Source: Chryseobacterium phocaeense (GTDB taxonomy: Bacteria; Bacteroidota; Bacteroidia; Flavobacteriales; Weeksellaceae). From it: a stretch of 64,000 nt of DNA. The stretch spans positions 2,868,158 through 2,932,157 of the forward strand of contig NZ_LT827015.1 in the NCBI RefSeq assembly GCF_900169075.1, written 5' to 3'. The notes beneath the pieces are model-generated. The model had not been told where the DNA came from. It worked only from the letters and a program-made list of their open reading frames with translations, and made no database searches. The position numbers were made by a program, and so were the translations under genes. This document shows, one piece after another, positions 1 through 5,892 of the stretch (its first letter is position 1; the number at the start of each line of letters is the position of its first letter).

Positions 1-1341
1 GATTACATGTGTGTCATTAAAAAGTATGGAAATATATCATTGGTGGCAGGGCAGTTATCAAATAGAATACAGCCTATGTCGAGTTTTAATAATGCAGGCC
101 AGGTAGGTTATTCTCAAGTGACCGAATCTTTTCTGTCAGCAGATGATTCTATATTATGGTCAAAGAAATACAATTTCAGTAATTATTCGGATGGTGGAGA
201 GTATTATAGATTTCCTTACCATTTACCAGATGACATGGATTGGGCCAGAGGCCTGAATCTAAAAACTACAAGTTACGATTCTACCGGGAAAATTGTAGAG
301 ACTTTGGACAATAAATATCATTTTTCGGGAGAAGAAATGTCTCCTTACAGGTTTTATAAAAGCTATGATGGCAGTATGGGTACAAATGCACCATTTACGG
401 AGTTAACCCCAGCACCACCTGCACAAGCTCCTTCAAATTACATATTGTCTCATTATACCAAGAGTGTACCTATGTATAAATTTGGTAAATATTTGAATGG
501 ACCATCGGACCCGTCTAACCAATCTTCAAACGTTTTCAGAACAGCATTTTTTTATGGAGGTGTGATACATAATTATCAAAAAATAAAAACAGAATACATT
601 AATGGGTTACCAACTCAGGTGGCATATATTGATACTGAAAAAGGTAGTATGAGTCATCATCAGGTAACCTCTAAAAAAGCAACAATGTCGGACGGAAGCA
701 TTACGGAAATCTCTTATCAGTATGCCATAGAGCAAAACAATTCAGAAATGATTACTGCTAATATGATCGGTGTTCCCCTTCAGACAGAAGAAAAAGAAAA
801 TGGTAAAACAATTTCTAAAACAAAAACAGTATATGCTAAGAATACATTAACCAATAACCTGATCCTTCCGGTATCTGTTCAGAAATTCGACAAGGATAAT
901 ACCTCATCAGCAAAGAACAGCATAACATATAACCGATATGACACCAAGGGAAATGTATTACAGTATACTACTAAAGAAAGCTTTCCTACAGCCATTATCT
1001 GGGGATATAATAATACACTACCTATTGCCAGAGTAGAAGGAGCTACTTACCAGCAAATACAGAGCTTTGCCGCAGACATTATTGCAAAGTCCAATGATGA
1101 TACAGATGCGGTCAAAGAAAGCCTGTTAATCAATGCCATGGACTCCTTCAGGAATCAGGATGCTTTTAAAAGATTCAGCATTACTACTTATACCTATGAT
1201 CCGCTGATTGGGGTAACCAGTGTAACGCCCTCTACAGGAGTAAGAGAATTTTACAAGTATGACGCTGCCGGCAGGCTTCAGTCTGTGGTAGATGTCAACA
1301 ATAACATTCTGAAAGAACTTCAGTATAACTACAAACAATAA
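1..1341 (+). CDS. YD/RHS-repeat protein, 3' part (5' end outside window)
   Basis: The reading frame is open from base 1 (two codons precede the first ATG at 7), so this is the C-terminal part of a longer gene. The last ~150 residues hold YD-repeat-like segments such as YNRYDTKGN and YKYDAAGRLQSV, typical of RHS/YD shells. It ends 10 bases before the next gene, which encodes a full RHS protein, so the two probably form one transcription unit. In flavobacterial genomes an RHS gene often follows a second large secreted YD-repeat partner, and I infer that role here. No catalytic domain is visible. The signal peptide, if any, lies upstream of the window. Confidence 0.75.
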   Translation, partial: DYMCVIKKYGNISLVAGQLSNRIQPMSSFNNAGQVGYSQVTESFLSADDSILWSKKYNFSNYSDGGEYYRFPYHLPDDMDWARGLNLKTTSYDSTGKIVETLDNKYHFSGEEMSPYRFYKSYDGSMGTNAPFTELTPAPPAQAPSNYILSHYTKSVPMYKFGKYLNGPSDPSNQSSNVFRTAFFYGGVIHNYQKIKTEYINGLPTQVAYIDTEKGSMSHHQVTSKKATMSDGSITEISYQYAIEQNNSEMITANMIGVPLQTEEKENGKTISKTKTVYAKNTLTNNLILPVSVQKFDKDNTSSAKNSITYNRYDTKGNVLQYTTKESFPTAIIWGYNNTLPIARVEGATYQQIQSFAADIIAKSNDDTDAVKESLLINAMDSFRNQDAFKRFSITTYTYDPLIGVTSVTPSTGVREFYKYDAAGRLQSVVDVNNNILKELQYNYKQ

Positions 1342-1351
1342 AACACACATT

Positions 1352-4300
1352 ATGAAAAAATATTGGTTATCCATTATAACCTGTTTGTGTACTGTACTGT
1401 CCTTAACGGCACAGAATCTGACACAGACAGAAAATTATACCTACAGCAGGACTTATCTGGAACCTGTGACTACCTCCAGCGGTACTGCAAAACAAATACA
1501 GGAAGTACAATATCTCGATGGTCTCGGGAGGGCAAAGCAGAACATTGCTGTAAAGGCAACCCCTTCCGGAAAAGACCTGGTGATTCCTGTGGAATATGAT
1601 GCTTTTGGGAGGCAGGTAAAAGATATGCTGCCATTACCCCAACAAAATACGAACAGTGGAGGAATCTTCCCCTCACCTGACATCACAGGAGCAATAACCG
1701 TATATGGCAATGCTTCCAATTATTACAGGGAAAAGAAAATTGAAAATTCCCCACTAAACAGATTAGAAGAGCAGGCTGCTCCGGGGGAACCCTGGAAAAT
1801 GGGAAGTGGAAAGACGATAAAATATACCTATGGAACCAATAATGCTTCTGAGGTTAAAAAAATTATGGTGAATACTTCATGGACCACTGTTTCAGGCGTT
1901 GCCGTAAGCAATCCCGTTCCCAGTGTTTCTGATGAAAATACGGCCTACGCTTCCGGGGGATTTTATAAAGCCGGGACCCTGTATAAAAATACCATTACCG
2001 ATGAAGACGGCAATAAAGTTACCAGATACACTAATGGCAAAGGACAGATTATTTTAGCGAGGAAAAATGACGGATCACAGAATGCAGATACTTACTATGT
2101 TTACAATGAATACGGTCAGCAGGTATTTGTTATCCTGCCATTAGGAGTAAAAGCTATGGAAACTGCAGGAAATGTAATCAGTCCTGCTGTTTTGGATGAT
2201 TTCTGCTACCAATACCATTATGATAATCAGGACAGGCTCGTAGGAAAAAAGTTTCCCGGTAAGGGCTGGGAATATATGGTCTATGACAGGCAGGACAGGC
2301 TGGTGGCTACTCAGGATGCCGAATTAAAAAAGAAAGGACAATGGCTGTATATCAAATATGACCAACTGGGCAGAACTGCCATTACAGGAATAGGAACAGG
2401 CGGACTGAGAACTACAGAACAGAAAATAGTTGACGGATTGGGATCAAACAATGTAAACAGGCTTGATACTGCTCTTTTTGAAAGACAGGGTATGCCTGTA
2501 TATTATGGAAACCCTGACAATACCTATCCGAATTCCACCAAATGGGTTACTTTATTATCCATAAATTATTATGACAGCATTCCCGGTTATAGCTTCAATC
2601 CTTCTTTCCCAACTGGCAAATCTGTCTTGACTGCGGTTTCTGTTGAGGGAAGAAGCACCAAAGGGCTTCCTGTGATGAATCTGGTTAAAAATATTGAAAA
2701 TGACAGCTGGACAAAAAATTACACCTGGTATGATACTAAAGGGAGAGAGATAGGATCCTATTCTATCAATCATCTTGGGGGGTATACCCAGGTGGAAACA
2801 GAGCTGGATTTTACAGGAGTACCTCTACGATCTGTGACTTCCCATAAAAGAAAAGAAGGTGAGGCTGTAACAGTAGTGAAGCAGCGCTTTGAATATGACA
2901 ATCAAAACAGACTTTCAAAGCAGTGGCATCAGGTGAATAGCCAGCAGGAGCAGCTATTGTCTGAAAATACCTATAACGAACTCTCCCAGCTGACAGGTAA
3001 AAAAGTAGGCGGAAACCTCCAAAATATTGATTATAAATACAATATCAGAGGATGGGTAACAAAAATGAATGACCCTTCCAACCTGAGCGGAAAGCTTTTT
3101 GGATATGAGCTGAAATACAATAACCCGGTTAATACCTCATTATCTGCGGGGAAGTTTAACGGGAATATAACAGAGGTAGATTGGGCGGCAGCGGGCAACA
3201 CCGGGCTTAAAAGGTATTCCTACCAGTATGACCCTCTGAACAGACTGAAGAGCGGTATTTATTCAGAGCCGGGCGCTTCTGTTCCCGTGAATAATTTTTA
3301 CAATGAGACTATTGCTTATGACCTGAACGGTAAGATCCAGAATCTTAAAAGAAACAGAAATGCATCCGGTATTGGTGCAGAACTTATTGATAATTTAAAT
3401 TATACCTATTCGGGAAGCAGGACAAATACCATCACAGATGTTTCCGGGAATTACTTTGGCTATCCTGATGTTTCGGGAGCTCCTATTTCGTACGATGATA
3501 ATGGGAATATGACCAATCTTATTGATAAAGGGATTCTGGAGATCGGTTACAACTACCTCAGCCTCCCTGGCCAGATAAGGTTCAATAAGGAATACAGATC
3601 CCGTGACAACCCGGATGTAAAGTACAATGTGAATACTAAATATCTTTACAGTGCAGATGGAATCAAGCTTAAAAAAGTGTACACCTTTGGCTCCGGCAGA
3701 ACAAATATGGAGTCGGTTACCACTACAGATTATCTGGATGGTTTCCAGTATGTGAATGATGTATTAAAGTTTGTGCCAACTTCGGAAGGGTATTTCAGCT
3801 TTGAAAATAATCAGTATATTTACAACTATACAGATCACCTGGGAAATATCCGCCTGTCTTATTATAAAGATAGTTTTGGAAATGCAGCGGTAGACAGGGA
3901 AACCAATTATTATCCTTTTGGATTAGAGTTTGGAGCCCACTCCACAACAAGTAATAGCACTCCCGGGTATCAGTATAAGTTTTTAGGGCAGGAATTGCAG
4001 CAGGAAACGGGCTGGGTTGATCTGAACGCAAGGTTTTATATGCCGGATGTAGGAATATTCGGGCAGCATGATCCTTTAAGTGCATCAACGCTTGATCCTT
4101 ATGGATATGCTTACAATAATCCCGTAATGTTTGCAGATCCTACAGGATTACAAGGTGAGCTTGCAAGTGGGGAACCAGATGAGCCAAAACCAATAGGAAC
4201 AGTGACCAATCCAATTGACGTAGGTGAAGTGGTAGTGAATGCTCCAATTAGGGCAATAGCTAATAATCTTGGATCAATTCTGCCTAATAATTGTACGCTT

Positions 4301-4930
4301 TGCTATAGTGGAATCGGAACTTCATCAGGTATTAGTCTTTCGGGTAACTACGCACCTCCATTACCTGCTAATTTTAAGCCTGTCTTGCATAACGGTTCTG
4401 CTCAGATGATGGATGGACTTCTTTGGGATGTAGCAGCCATTTATTTAGCAAATAATGTAAAACCTGAAAATAAATATGCAGCAATGGCGGTTGGTGCTTT
4501 AGCTATTATTATTTCCAGGGGACATGCAGCGGATGAAGTATTAAAGGCGGAAGCATCAATTGCAAAGGCGGAAGCAATAGCTGCTAAAGCTGAAACTAAT
4601 ACATTAATACATTATACATCCGAAGAAGGATATAAAGCTATTATGGAATCGGGAGAACTATTACCATCTATTGGTGTGAAAAATGCAAGACATGGAGCAG
4701 GTCAATATTTTACAGATTTGGCCTCAAATGAATTAACAAAAGGACAGGTTTCAAGAAGGCTATTTGGTGTTCCCTGGAATACAAAAAGTATTACTCATTT
4801 TATTGAAATAGATGTTCGAGGATTGAATGTTGTAAAAAATGCTCCTAATAATTTTTTGATTCCAAATACAAATAGTCTTCCATTAACCGGGATTATTGTA
4901 AATCACGGGACTTCAACTTTTAAACCTTAA
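1352..4930 (+). CDS. Secreted RHS polymorphic toxin with C-terminal HYD1-type ADP-ribosyltransferase domain
   Basis: 1192 residues. An N-terminal signal peptide (hydrophobic stretch ending TAQN) is followed by many YD repeats (for example YDAFGRQV, YDPLNRLK) and the RHS core motif ending NPVMFADPTGL near residue 930. The C-terminal ~260 residues are unlike the shell and visibly more AT-rich. The last ~110 residues resemble the Tox-ART-HYD1 family: His in IHYTSEEGY (H1087), Tyr and Asp in GQYFTD (Y1119, D1122) and an acidic strand FIEIDV (D1154). HYD1 ARTs transfer ADP-ribose from NAD to a target, which cannot be told here. The downstream gene is a probable immunity partner 17 bases away. The RHS call is firm; the toxin subfamily is from motif recall. 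Confidence 0.85.
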   Translation: MKKYWLSIITCLCTVLSLTAQNLTQTENYTYSRTYLEPVTTSSGTAKQIQEVQYLDGLGRAKQNIAVKATPSGKDLVIPVEYDAFGRQVKDMLPLPQQNTNSGGIFPSPDITGAITVYGNASNYYREKKIENSPLNRLEEQAAPGEPWKMGSGKTIKYTYGTNNASEVKKIMVNTSWTTVSGVAVSNPVPSVSDENTAYASGGFYKAGTLYKNTITDEDGNKVTRYTNGKGQIILARKNDGSQNADTYYVYNEYGQQVFVILPLGVKAMETAGNVISPAVLDDFCYQYHYDNQDRLVGKKFPGKGWEYMVYDRQDRLVATQDAELKKKGQWLYIKYDQLGRTAITGIGTGGLRTTEQKIVDGLGSNNVNRLDTALFERQGMPVYYGNPDNTYPNSTKWVTLLSINYYDSIPGYSFNPSFPTGKSVLTAVSVEGRSTKGLPVMNLVKNIENDSWTKNYTWYDTKGREIGSYSINHLGGYTQVETELDFTGVPLRSVTSHKRKEGEAVTVVKQRFEYDNQNRLSKQWHQVNSQQEQLLSENTYNELSQLTGKKVGGNLQNIDYKYNIRGWVTKMNDPSNLSGKLFGYELKYNNPVNTSLSAGKFNGNITEVDWAAAGNTGLKRYSYQYDPLNRLKSGIYSEPGASVPVNNFYNETIAYDLNGKIQNLKRNRNASGIGAELIDNLNYTYSGSRTNTITDVSGNYFGYPDVSGAPISYDDNGNMTNLIDKGILEIGYNYLSLPGQIRFNKEYRSRDNPDVKYNVNTKYLYSADGIKLKKVYTFGSGRTNMESVTTTDYLDGFQYVNDVLKFVPTSEGYFSFENNQYIYNYTDHLGNIRLSYYKDSFGNAAVDRETNYYPFGLEFGAHSTTSNSTPGYQYKFLGQELQQETGWVDLNARFYMPDVGIFGQHDPLSASTLDPYGYAYNNPVMFADPTGLQGELASGEPDEPKPIGTVTNPIDVGEVVVNAPIRAIANNLGSILPNNCTLCYSGIGTSSGISLSGNYAPPLPANFKPVLHNGSAQMMDGLLWDVAAIYLANNVKPENKYAAMAVGALAIIISRGHAADEVLKAEASIAKAEAIAAKAETNTLIHYTSEEGYKAIMESGELLPSIGVKNARHGAGQYFTDLASNELTKGQVSRRLFGVPWNTKSITHFIEIDVRGLNVVKNAPNNFLIPNTNSLPLTGIIVNHGTSTFKP

Positions 4931-4947
4931 ATATTAAACTTAAAAAT

Positions 4948-5190
4948 ATGCAGGAATTATTTGTGAAAAAATTTTGGGAAGAAGAGAATATATGGTTTTA
5001 TATGCATTTCCAAAATGAAGAAGCTATCAGACAAATTGAAATTAATCCTAAAGGAAAAGTGTTTTTAACATTAGAATATCCTCAACAAGGCGAATCTATG
5101 TTATACGATCAATCTTTTAAAGACCTGGATTTAAATGATTCTGATTTTATTACTAAGGACGAATTTGATGAAATTTGGAATAACAAGTAA
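4948..5190 (+). CDS. Small acidic protein, candidate immunity protein for the RHS ART toxin
   Basis: 80 residues, no signal peptide or membrane segment, rich in Glu, Asp and aromatic residues (FWEEENIWFY). It starts 17 bases after the RHS toxin stop and is followed at once by a strong hairpin terminator, so it is the last gene of the toxin unit. Position, size and acidity fit a cytoplasmic immunity protein that would bind the ART domain. I do not recognise the family with certainty; some resemblance to DUF6881-like small proteins is possible. The immunity function is inferred from position only. Confidence 0.6.
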   Translation: MQELFVKKFWEEENIWFYMHFQNEEAIRQIEINPKGKVFLTLEYPQQGESMLYDQSFKDLDLNDSDFITKDEFDEIWNNK

Positions 5191-5191
5191 T

Positions 5192-5219
5192 ATAAAGCCC
5201 CATGTAATTGGGGCTTTAT
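5192..5219. terminator. Bidirectional hairpin terminator
   Basis: Perfect 10-bp stem ATAAAGCCCC / GGGGCTTTAT with an 8-base loop. It lies between the convergent immunity gene and macrodomain gene and can serve both strands. Confidence 0.85.
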
Positions 5220-5223
5220 TATT

Positions 5224-5679
5224 TTAGTTTCCGCAATAATTTTCAACTACAAATAAATGAATATTGGGGTAATTTCCAATTACTTTTTCAATCACGAAAG
5301 CAACTTCGTTCCAATCTAATCCGCCTAATCCTGCTCCAATTTTCGGCATGGATATTTCAAAAATATTATTTTCTGATGCATATGAAAACATCTTAATTAA
5401 AGCATTTTCAATAGCATTAATGTCTGCTTTTGTTCTCCAATTTGATTGGGTTGCAAGATTAAAAATTATCCCATTTGAATAATTATAAATAAATACATCC
5501 CCTAAAAAGAACAACTTCTGTTTACATAAAATTTTATATTCTTGGTACATGAGTGGAAATTTTTTTTTGAATTGTAATGCTATCCCCTTTCCCATAGCAC
5601 CAGCACAATTACAACCATGAGCAAAATTATAAACTCCATGCAAATTAAAAATATCACCCTCTTTAATATATGTAATCAT
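5224..5679 (-). CDS. Macrodomain protein (TARG1/ALC1/DarG-like ADP-ribose-processing)
   Basis: A single macrodomain of 151 residues. Visible motifs are the N-terminal GDIF strand, the phosphate-binding loop GCNCAGAMGKGIALQFKKKF and IGAGLGGLDW near the C-terminus; the first and last resemble TARG1, ALC1 and DarG macrodomains, which bind or remove ADP-ribose. The position where TARG1 and DarG have the catalytic Lys (T-K) reads T-Q in NLATQSNW, so the lysine chemistry may be absent or different. I use the ATG at 5679; an upstream in-frame TTG at 5703 is less likely. The gene converges on the ART toxin module and could erase toxin damage, but it is not in the same operon and no DarT-like gene is visible. 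Confidence 0.85.
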   Translation of the reverse strand: MITYIKEGDIFNLHGVYNFAHGCNCAGAMGKGIALQFKKKFPLMYQEYKILCKQKLFFLGDVFIYNYSNGIIFNLATQSNWRTKADINAIENALIKMFSYASENNIFEISMPKIGAGLGGLDWNEVAFVIEKVIGNYPNIHLFVVENYCGN

Positions 5680-5731
5680 CTTGTAAGTTAAGTTATTATG
5701 CAAAAATATTATTTTTTTAAAGAATGGTAAG

Positions 5732-5892
5732 CTATGATAAGCCTAATGTGGTGAGGCTTCCTGATAAATAATCTTTTTTCCAACGCCTTATACTATTAGG
5801 GTGGATATTAAGTTCCCCCGCAAGAGAATCTATACTACAATTACGTTCCTCCAACAACTCTATTGTTTAGTTCTAAATTCTTTATTGTACAT
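5732..5892 (-). pseudogene. Fragment of IS3-type transposase OrfA
   Basis: On the minus strand an ATG at 5892 opens a short frame (MYNKEFRTKQ, stop), and after a one-frame shift the sequence continues as IELLEERNCSID, then LAGELNIHPNSIRRWKKDY, a helix-turn-helix typical of IS3-family OrfA, ending at a stop at 5732. The frameshift and the lack of OrfB and end repeats show a dead remnant. It marks past transposition at the edge of the toxin island. Confidence 0.55.

Follow-up and report, generated by a model that had tools for sequence, protein, structure and literature searches.

We analyzed a 64,000-nucleotide stretch of the Chryseobacterium phocaeense genome (contig NZ_LT827015.1, positions 2,868,158 to 2,932,157; called the window in the following). 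It carries an RHS toxin gene with a Tox-ART-HYD1 (HYD1) ADP-ribosyltransferase (ART) tip, an immunity gene of the Imm-My6CBD type and, convergent to both, a small macrodomain gene. That the association of these three genes is real and conserved is, in our judgment, close to certain. We also favor, with moderate confidence, the interpretation of the locus as a three-gene polymorphic-toxin cassette. A fairly good case can be made that this cassette is a two-layer module, in which Imm-My6CBD would block the toxin, and the macrodomain would act as a second immunity layer that removes or binds the ADP-ribose product. This case builds on family assignments, conserved adjacency, terminator architecture, correlated divergence and the persistence of the immunity-macrodomain pair in some genomes where no intact toxin adjoins it.

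Recurrence of the macrodomain beside the immunity gene

Searches starting from the macrodomain covered 395 genomes of the class, 173 of the genus, 301 of Sphingobacteriaceae, 167 of Chitinophagaceae and 169 of Flavobacterium, the group names following the named loci used as centers. In the last three groups, an E-value threshold of 1e-40 was applied, so that weaker macrodomains are not listed there. These searches gave 14 distinct intact copies of the subfamily, all scoring >245 bits. Matches of about 76-114 bits in the class and genus searches were mostly DarG-type proteins of about 350 amino acids and were excluded from the 14, as was a decayed copy in two fragments (G476, the same as L004). 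Entries with identical coordinates were counted once (G021/G399/L007, G485/G395/L003 and G476/G396/L004). Three genomes (G401, G402 and G405) were first reached by immunity gene searches and then again by macrodomain searches. The genomes of L014 and L017 also carry the macrodomain; they were reached via the immunity gene only and are outside the 14.

The immunity gene adjoins 11 of the 14 intact macrodomain copies, convergently in 10 cases (G000, G021, G485 twice, G487, G643, G401, G405, G908 and G1166) and codirectionally in one (G814). The three copies without an adjoining immunity gene are those of G402, G839 and G866. By group, adjacency was seen for 5/5 copies in Chryseobacterium, 2/5 in Sphingobacteriaceae, 3/3 in Chitinophagaceae and 1/1 in Flavobacterium. 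A preliminary description of the window had regarded the opposite strand as an argument for loose linkage or coincidence, and had named a macrodomain equally common away from ART toxins as an outcome that would refute a connection. The strand argument is not borne out, and with 11 of 14 copies beside the immunity gene this refuting outcome was not seen.

In searches from the toxin side, PF15633 was detected in 4 of the 173 genus genomes, and all three intact toxins (G000, G021 and G487) are accompanied by both the immunity gene and the macrodomain. Neither gene was found in 10 kb around the decayed HYD1 of G583, and no subfamily macrodomain in 16 kb around a distant HYD1 in G397 (32.5 bits). 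Class-wide, the subfamily macrodomain was present in 2/395 genomes and HYD1 in 2/390, both times in the window genome and one congener.

Starting from the immunity gene, we found a convergent macrodomain in 7 of 22 loci (L003 with two pairs, L004 with a decayed copy, L007, L009, L013, L014 and L017). HYD1 similarity was present in 8 of the 22 loci, 5 of which have the macrodomain (the HYD1 frame of L017 contains one stop). Among the other three, HYD1 is truncated or decayed in L006 and L022, and the contig of L016 ends 124 nt past the immunity gene. In the genus, the five genomes with a macrodomain (one of them decayed) all belong to the 14 of 173 genomes that have an immunity gene match, intact or decayed (hand-calculated p ~1.6e-6, phylogeny ignored). 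The HYD1 cassettes of L013 and L014 are near-identical, and their contigs are labeled as metagenome-assembled genomes of Chitinophagaceae and Alphaproteobacteria, respectively; such near-identity under distant labels suggests that one contig was mis-binned.

Metagenome protein lists point in the same direction. Excluding the window, 41 of the 119 other best macrodomain rows matched an immunity row in the exact size of the longest contig (42 of 120 with the window included). The immunity rows comprised 121 distinct contig sizes, and both lists were ranked by similarity to the window. In a control with contig sizes shifted by 1-60, the mean was 1.7 matches and the maximum 4. This linkage is deduced from equal size and not from context, and we use it as supporting evidence only. 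With this excess over the control, and with adjacency across genera, pure coincidence was rejected as the leading account.

Eleven convergent loci were examined. In each of them, 28-42 nt separate the last sense codons of the two genes and fold as a hairpin (no shuffled control), and the stems differ between the more distant loci. At L147, the two genes are on the same strand, and the ATG of the macrodomain gene lies 4 nt past the immunity stop. The ratio of nonsynonymous to synonymous substitution rates (dN/dS) for 10 macrodomain pairs was 0.07-0.32; comparisons of the L003 copies and L150 with one another gave 0.14-0.16. Immunity and macrodomain distances are correlated across 11 loci (r=0.73, permutation p=0.0001) and across 42 size-matched contig pairs, the window's own included (r=0.50, permutation p=0.0001). 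Such a correlation would be expected from co-inheritance, and alone is no proof of joint function.

The pair also persists without an intact toxin beside it. In Chryseobacterium oleae L003 (two copies), L147, L148 and L149, the immunity and macrodomain reading frames are open, and no intact HYD1 adjoins them; a search of the L003 genome for PF15633 gave no match.

These data bear on the possibility that the macrodomain is unrelated to the toxin, and merely hitchhikes with recombining toxin-immunity cassettes. The opposite strand, an insertion sequence-like remnant just past the macrodomain gene in the window, the existence of standalone macrodomain copies and the lack of a macrodomain beside most orphan immunity copies would all fit. 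However, the pair recurs in several genera with terminator stems that differ between the more distant loci, it is codirectional in L147, and the macrodomain frame remains intact next to immunity genes that have lost their toxin or retain only pieces of it. The co-divergence of the two genes also speaks against hitchhiking, although co-transfer alone could also yield it. We therefore regard hitchhiking as improbable.

The toxin tip and its immunity protein

The RHS protein matches DUF6443, RHS_repeat, the RHS core TIGR03696 (residues 853-933) and, C-terminally, Tox-ART-HYD1 (90.5 bits against a curated cut-off of 25). Its N-terminus resembles a Sec signal peptide, as judged by eye. The conserved residues of Tox-ART-HYD1 have been given as H, [RK], [FY] and [DE] (PMC3482391; here and below, papers are cited for the portions of their text that were available to us). 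In six aligned tips, H12, K35 together with R38, and Y44 are invariant, and position 79 is D or E, the assignment of these positions being our own. Neither a PDB sequence search with the tip nor a scan of viral contigs for HYD1 returned a relative. The activity of the toxin and its target at this locus are predicted from the family.

Imm-My6CBD is the immunity family of Tox-ART-HYD1 in the survey of Zhang et al. 2012 (PMC3482391). The window immunity protein itself reaches only 18.5 bits against Myosin-VI_CBD, below the curated cut-off of 25.8; 30 of 44 aligned family members match this profile at E<=0.05 (best 2.1e-5). The structure model of the protein has a predicted local distance difference test (pLDDT) score of 93, and myosin VI structures take the first eight places among its PDB matches (probability 1.00, TMq 0.65-0.80, E-values 0.012-0.1, none at E<=0.001). 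A search of PDB sequences with the immunity profile gave only T-cell-receptor matches (E 0.46 or worse). Taken together, the family listing, the profile matches of relatives and the myosin VI-like model indicate that toxin and immunity gene are a known pair, and the toxin-then-immunity order of the window is repeated in L007, L009, L013, L150 and L151. Judged from family and position, Imm-My6CBD would most likely block the toxin by binding to its HYD1 tip.

Genes of the Imm-My6CBD type were also observed amid small immunity-like genes in L003, L150 and L156-L159, several of them without HYD1. Their neighbors include DUF5958 in L003 and a DMP19-like gene in L150, and we read these loci as orphan polyimmunity loci. 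A different downstream gene occurs on Pseudomonadota plasmids, where the HYD1 toxins of L163, L165 and L166 are followed by DUF6881 proteins. Four of nine such plasmid records were inspected, and no immunity gene of the Imm-My6CBD type was found within 3.5 kb; of four downstream proteins, three were scanned and all three are DUF6881. Since 9 of 44 members of the window immunity family also match DUF6881 weakly, DUF6881 probably represents a further immunity family for HYD1 toxins.

The macrodomain as a candidate second immunity layer

The score against PF01661 (53 bits, cut-off 22) identifies a macrodomain fold by profile, and sequence relatives of known structure include DarG macrodomains and TARG1 (5m3i, 5m31 and 4j5r). 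DarG profiles match with 118.9 bits in NCBIfam (N-terminal part only, cut-off 250) and 125 bits in PADLOC. The best profile is phage phrog_335, annotated as 'phosphatase' (165 bits, E=6.2e-48). At the position of K84, the catalytic lysine in the T-K loop of TARG1, glutamine is found in 120/120 of the best subfamily rows (of 1171 matches), versus lysine in 30/30 lower-scoring macrodomains that were aligned (30 of 40 such matches). Likewise, residue 21 is histidine in 120/120 subfamily rows and asparagine in 30/30 of the other macrodomains. The position of TARG1 Asp125 is occupied by glycine. The earlier label 'TARG1/ALC1/DarG-like' is only roughly right: phrog_335 scores higher than the DarG profiles, and the TARG1/DarG lysine is absent. 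A plain DarG or TARG1 orthologue was rejected, as the DarG model stays below its cut-off and the catalytic lysine is replaced.

Among 30 viral relatives, 15 have the glutamine at the lysine position. Matches on plasmids and phages were all below 60% identity, and a single-sequence macrodomain scan of genome contigs found no relatives. In Acinetobacter phage vB_AbaM_D22 (L162), a gene for a related macrodomain shares one base with the end of a nicotinamide phosphoribosyltransferase gene, which hints at a role in nicotinamide adenine dinucleotide (NAD) metabolism in phages. The macrodomains of L152, L153 and L154 stand alone amid repeated copies of a 152-amino-acid gene, the product of which looks secreted by eye.

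In the two-layer interpretation, Imm-My6CBD would form the first layer by binding and occluding the HYD1 tip. The macrodomain would form the second, recognizing the ADP-ribose product of HYD1-type toxins and then hydrolyzing or sequestering it. The toxin could be the cell's own, acting before export, or come from kin or competitors. We infer toxin activity, target, binding and macrodomain chemistry from families and gene context. The product may be ADP-ribosylated 23S rRNA. This RNA is the reported target of the Photorhabdus toxin Tre23, which has been assigned to PF15633 among the Rhs HYD1 toxins (PMC9990079, PMC11125620). Tre23 is the one HYD1 member for which we found a reported target, and by family it makes ADP-ribosylated rRNA a candidate here. 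The linkage of the Tre23 mark is called unidentified in PMC11833690. The opposite strand and the shared terminator would permit macrodomain expression independent of the toxin operon. That the macrodomain recurs next to this immunity gene across several genera points to an additional layer of self-protection, with a chemistry unlike that of the first. In a more specific version, to which we give about an even chance, a phage-type macrodomain with uniform glutamine at the lysine position was co-opted in Bacteroidota to serve specifically as the second immunity protein against RHS-HYD1 toxins. It would erase or cap the ADP-ribose mark, perhaps a Tre23-like mark on 23S rRNA, in a manner other than that of DarG or TARG1. 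It would move together with Imm-My6CBD, and once the toxin is lost, orphan immunity arrays could keep the two genes as a unit.

Several observations weigh against this interpretation. With glutamine at K84 and glycine at Asp125, hydrolysis by the TARG1/DarG mechanism is not expected. TARG1-like and MacroD-type macrodomains failed to remove the 2'-OH RNA mark of RhsP2 (PMC11833690), and the modifications by Tre23 and RhsP2 have been termed inherently irreversible (PMC11125620). Polyimmunity genes are described with a single common orientation (PMC3482391). The linkage is also incomplete: besides most orphan immunity copies, the subfamily macrodomain is missing from 9 of the 14 immunity-bearing genus genomes, and where an immunity locus shows no HYD1 similarity, it is present in only 2 of 12 cases (L003 and L004). 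Around the Sphingobacteriaceae macrodomains L152-L154, neither a toxin nor an immunity gene of these types was seen within the 8-10 kb read, the four inspected plasmid HYD1 records have no such macrodomain within 3.5 kb, and neither HYD1 nor an Imm-My6CBD-type gene occurs in the stretches around the 30 viral relatives. Finally, the highest dN/dS (0.32) belongs to the pair of window and L150, and L003a-L003b, the only pair comparing two toxin-free copies, shows very few changes. The two-layer defence proposed in the preliminary description is supported in part: the linkage is real, and the idea fits and has a parallel in Bxa/Bsi/BAH (PMC11699363). Its 'reversal enzyme' is unproven, given the uniform glutamine and the orphan immunity copies without a macrodomain.

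A conserved pocket unlike that of TARG1 and DarG suggests either another hydrolytic mechanism or non-catalytic binding. Alternatively, the macrodomain might act on the toxin or its producer and not as immunity, for example by stripping auto-ADP-ribosylation before export or by regulating the locus through NAD or ADP-ribose sensing. In favor of this, the conservation of pocket residues suggests that a ligand is bound even though the known catalytic lysine is missing. Toxin processing would, however, not require the pair to be kept where the toxin is gone or fragmented (L003 twice, L148 and L149), and we consider this role very improbable.

The macrodomain might instead clear a small soluble toxin product, such as ADP-ribose-1''-phosphate or free ADP-ribose, or some other product of NAD breakdown, and not repair a macromolecule. 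It would then still be protective, as a clean-up enzyme or a sink. The phrog_335 'phosphatase' annotation, the gene overlap in the phage relative and the lysine-to-glutamine pocket are in line with this idea. The same applies to the low-confidence structure model of the tip, which resembles, after the uncharacterized CC0527 in first place, Tpt1/KptA; its 18 structure matches also include TreTu and DarT. The mean pLDDT of the tip model is only 57, so that these matches are weak (none at E<=0.001), and the HYD1 toxin Tre23 is reported to act on a macromolecule, 23S rRNA (PMC9990079). Metabolite clearing appears unlikely, if worth keeping in mind, and we continue to prefer the macrodomain as a second immunity layer against the ADP-ribose product of the toxin.

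If true, the two-layer interpretation would have several implications. Polymorphic toxins are seldom countered by enzymes, and the 2012 survey has a single enzymatic immunity class, Imm-ARG, against ARTs of the R-S-E clade (PMC3482391, available text), and a macrodomain tracking the HYD1 cassette across Bacteroidota would add an enzyme fold and an ART clade. It would also suggest a function for a widespread group of phage and bacterial macrodomains without the usual catalytic lysine. As the macrodomain substrate should match the toxin product, it would help to find the molecules that are modified by HYD1 toxins. The mark left on 23S rRNA by Tre23-like toxins, treated as irreversible in the literature available, might then be erasable or cappable.

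Layout of the locus and known systems

The features of the locus are collected in Table 1. The preliminary description had read it as an RHS gene with a HYD1-type tip, an adjacent small immunity candidate and, past a shared terminator, a macrodomain gene in convergent orientation. This layout was confirmed: the tip aligns to an ART family, the small gene is of the Imm-My6CBD type, and a hairpin separates it from the convergent macrodomain gene.

Table 1. Features of the RHS-HYD1 locus (window positions).
Feature	Position	Strand	Evidence or content
RHS carrier, 1192 aa	1352..4930	+	DUF6443, RHS repeats, RHS core, C-terminal toxin tip
Tox-ART-HYD1 ADP-ribosyltransferase domain, PF15633, residues 1085-1180	4604..4891	+	E=1.1e-25
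Imm-My6CBD-type immunity gene, 80 aa	4948..5190	+	open reading frame, profile match below cut-off, family alignment, structure model
Terminator-like hairpin, symmetric, between two convergent genes	5192..5219	both	11 pairs, called on both strands
Gene for a 151-aa macrodomain of a phage-type (phrog_335-like) subfamily, with H21 and Q78	5224..5679	-	PF01661 E=3.9e-14

The immunity gene starts 17 nt past the toxin stop. The hairpin has 11 pairs and was called on both strands (2 sites versus 0.5 expected in shuffles). Macrodomain coordinates are counted from the ATG, but translation might also begin at a TTG at 5703, giving a longer product. PF01661 and PF15633 have a single match each in the entire genome (E<=0.001). 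Upstream of the toxin gene, a reading frame at 1-1341 (+) exceeds the window and measures 1109 amino acids in the genome. Its product has an RHS/YD repeat close to the C-terminal end, and as its stop lies 10 bp ahead of the RHS-HYD1 gene, the RHS carrier may span two genes. A short stretch just past the macrodomain gene, at 5732-5866 (-), has stop codons upstream and resembles an IS3-type OrfA in its helix-turn-helix part; we take it to be a probable transposase remnant.

In the open-licence PMC literature, there was no report of a macrodomain with a HYD1 cassette among the matches listed. In the Tox-ART-HYD1/Imm-My6CBD survey, this toxin family is likewise borne by an RHS protein, with the same immunity family directly downstream; its available text names no macrodomain partner, and the whole word 'macro' occurs in it 0 times (PMC3482391). 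In other open-licence PMC papers naming Tox-ART-HYD1, 'macrodomain' and 'macro domain' are absent. Tre23 is described as a member of the same PF15633 Rhs HYD1 class, and protection is ascribed to the Tri23 immunity protein only in the portions available (PMC9990079, PMC11125620).

Other systems share single aspects with our locus. In myxobacteria, YbiA/NADAR rescues cells from YarT of the HYD1 clade, so that here too a HYD1-subclade ART is countered by a protein of the ADP-ribosylhydrolase type; in contrast, the fold is NADAR, and YarT is stand-alone and not RHS-borne (PMC11125620). In DarTG, a macrodomain counters an ART, and DarG profiles match the window protein, which, however, lacks the DarG C-terminal region (151 versus ~350 amino acids), has glutamine for lysine and neighbors RHS-HYD1. 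The phage family phrog_335 provides the best profile and shares the glutamine in half of the viral relatives, but not, in the stretches read around these relatives, the genomic neighbors HYD1 and Imm-My6CBD. PARG enzymes protect from RhsP2, and a macrodomain-fold enzyme can hence protect from an Rhs ART, although PARG is another class and is encoded apart from the toxin (PMC11833690). FmTARG1 adjoins Imm51, an immunity-type gene; it is a TARG1-type enzyme, and the available text names no ART toxin (PMC6397177).

Two immunity proteins against one ART toxin are known from the Bxa system. Unlike there, the second immunity gene proposed for our locus is convergent, and its chemistry is a prediction. 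The BAH protein of the Bxa system is an ARH1-like hydrolase, with a fold distinct from that of macrodomains. In this Bacteroides prophage system, Bsi binds the toxin and BAH reverses the ADP-ribosylation, and the ART toxin is thus matched by a binder and an eraser (PMC11699363), as we propose for Imm-My6CBD and the macrodomain.

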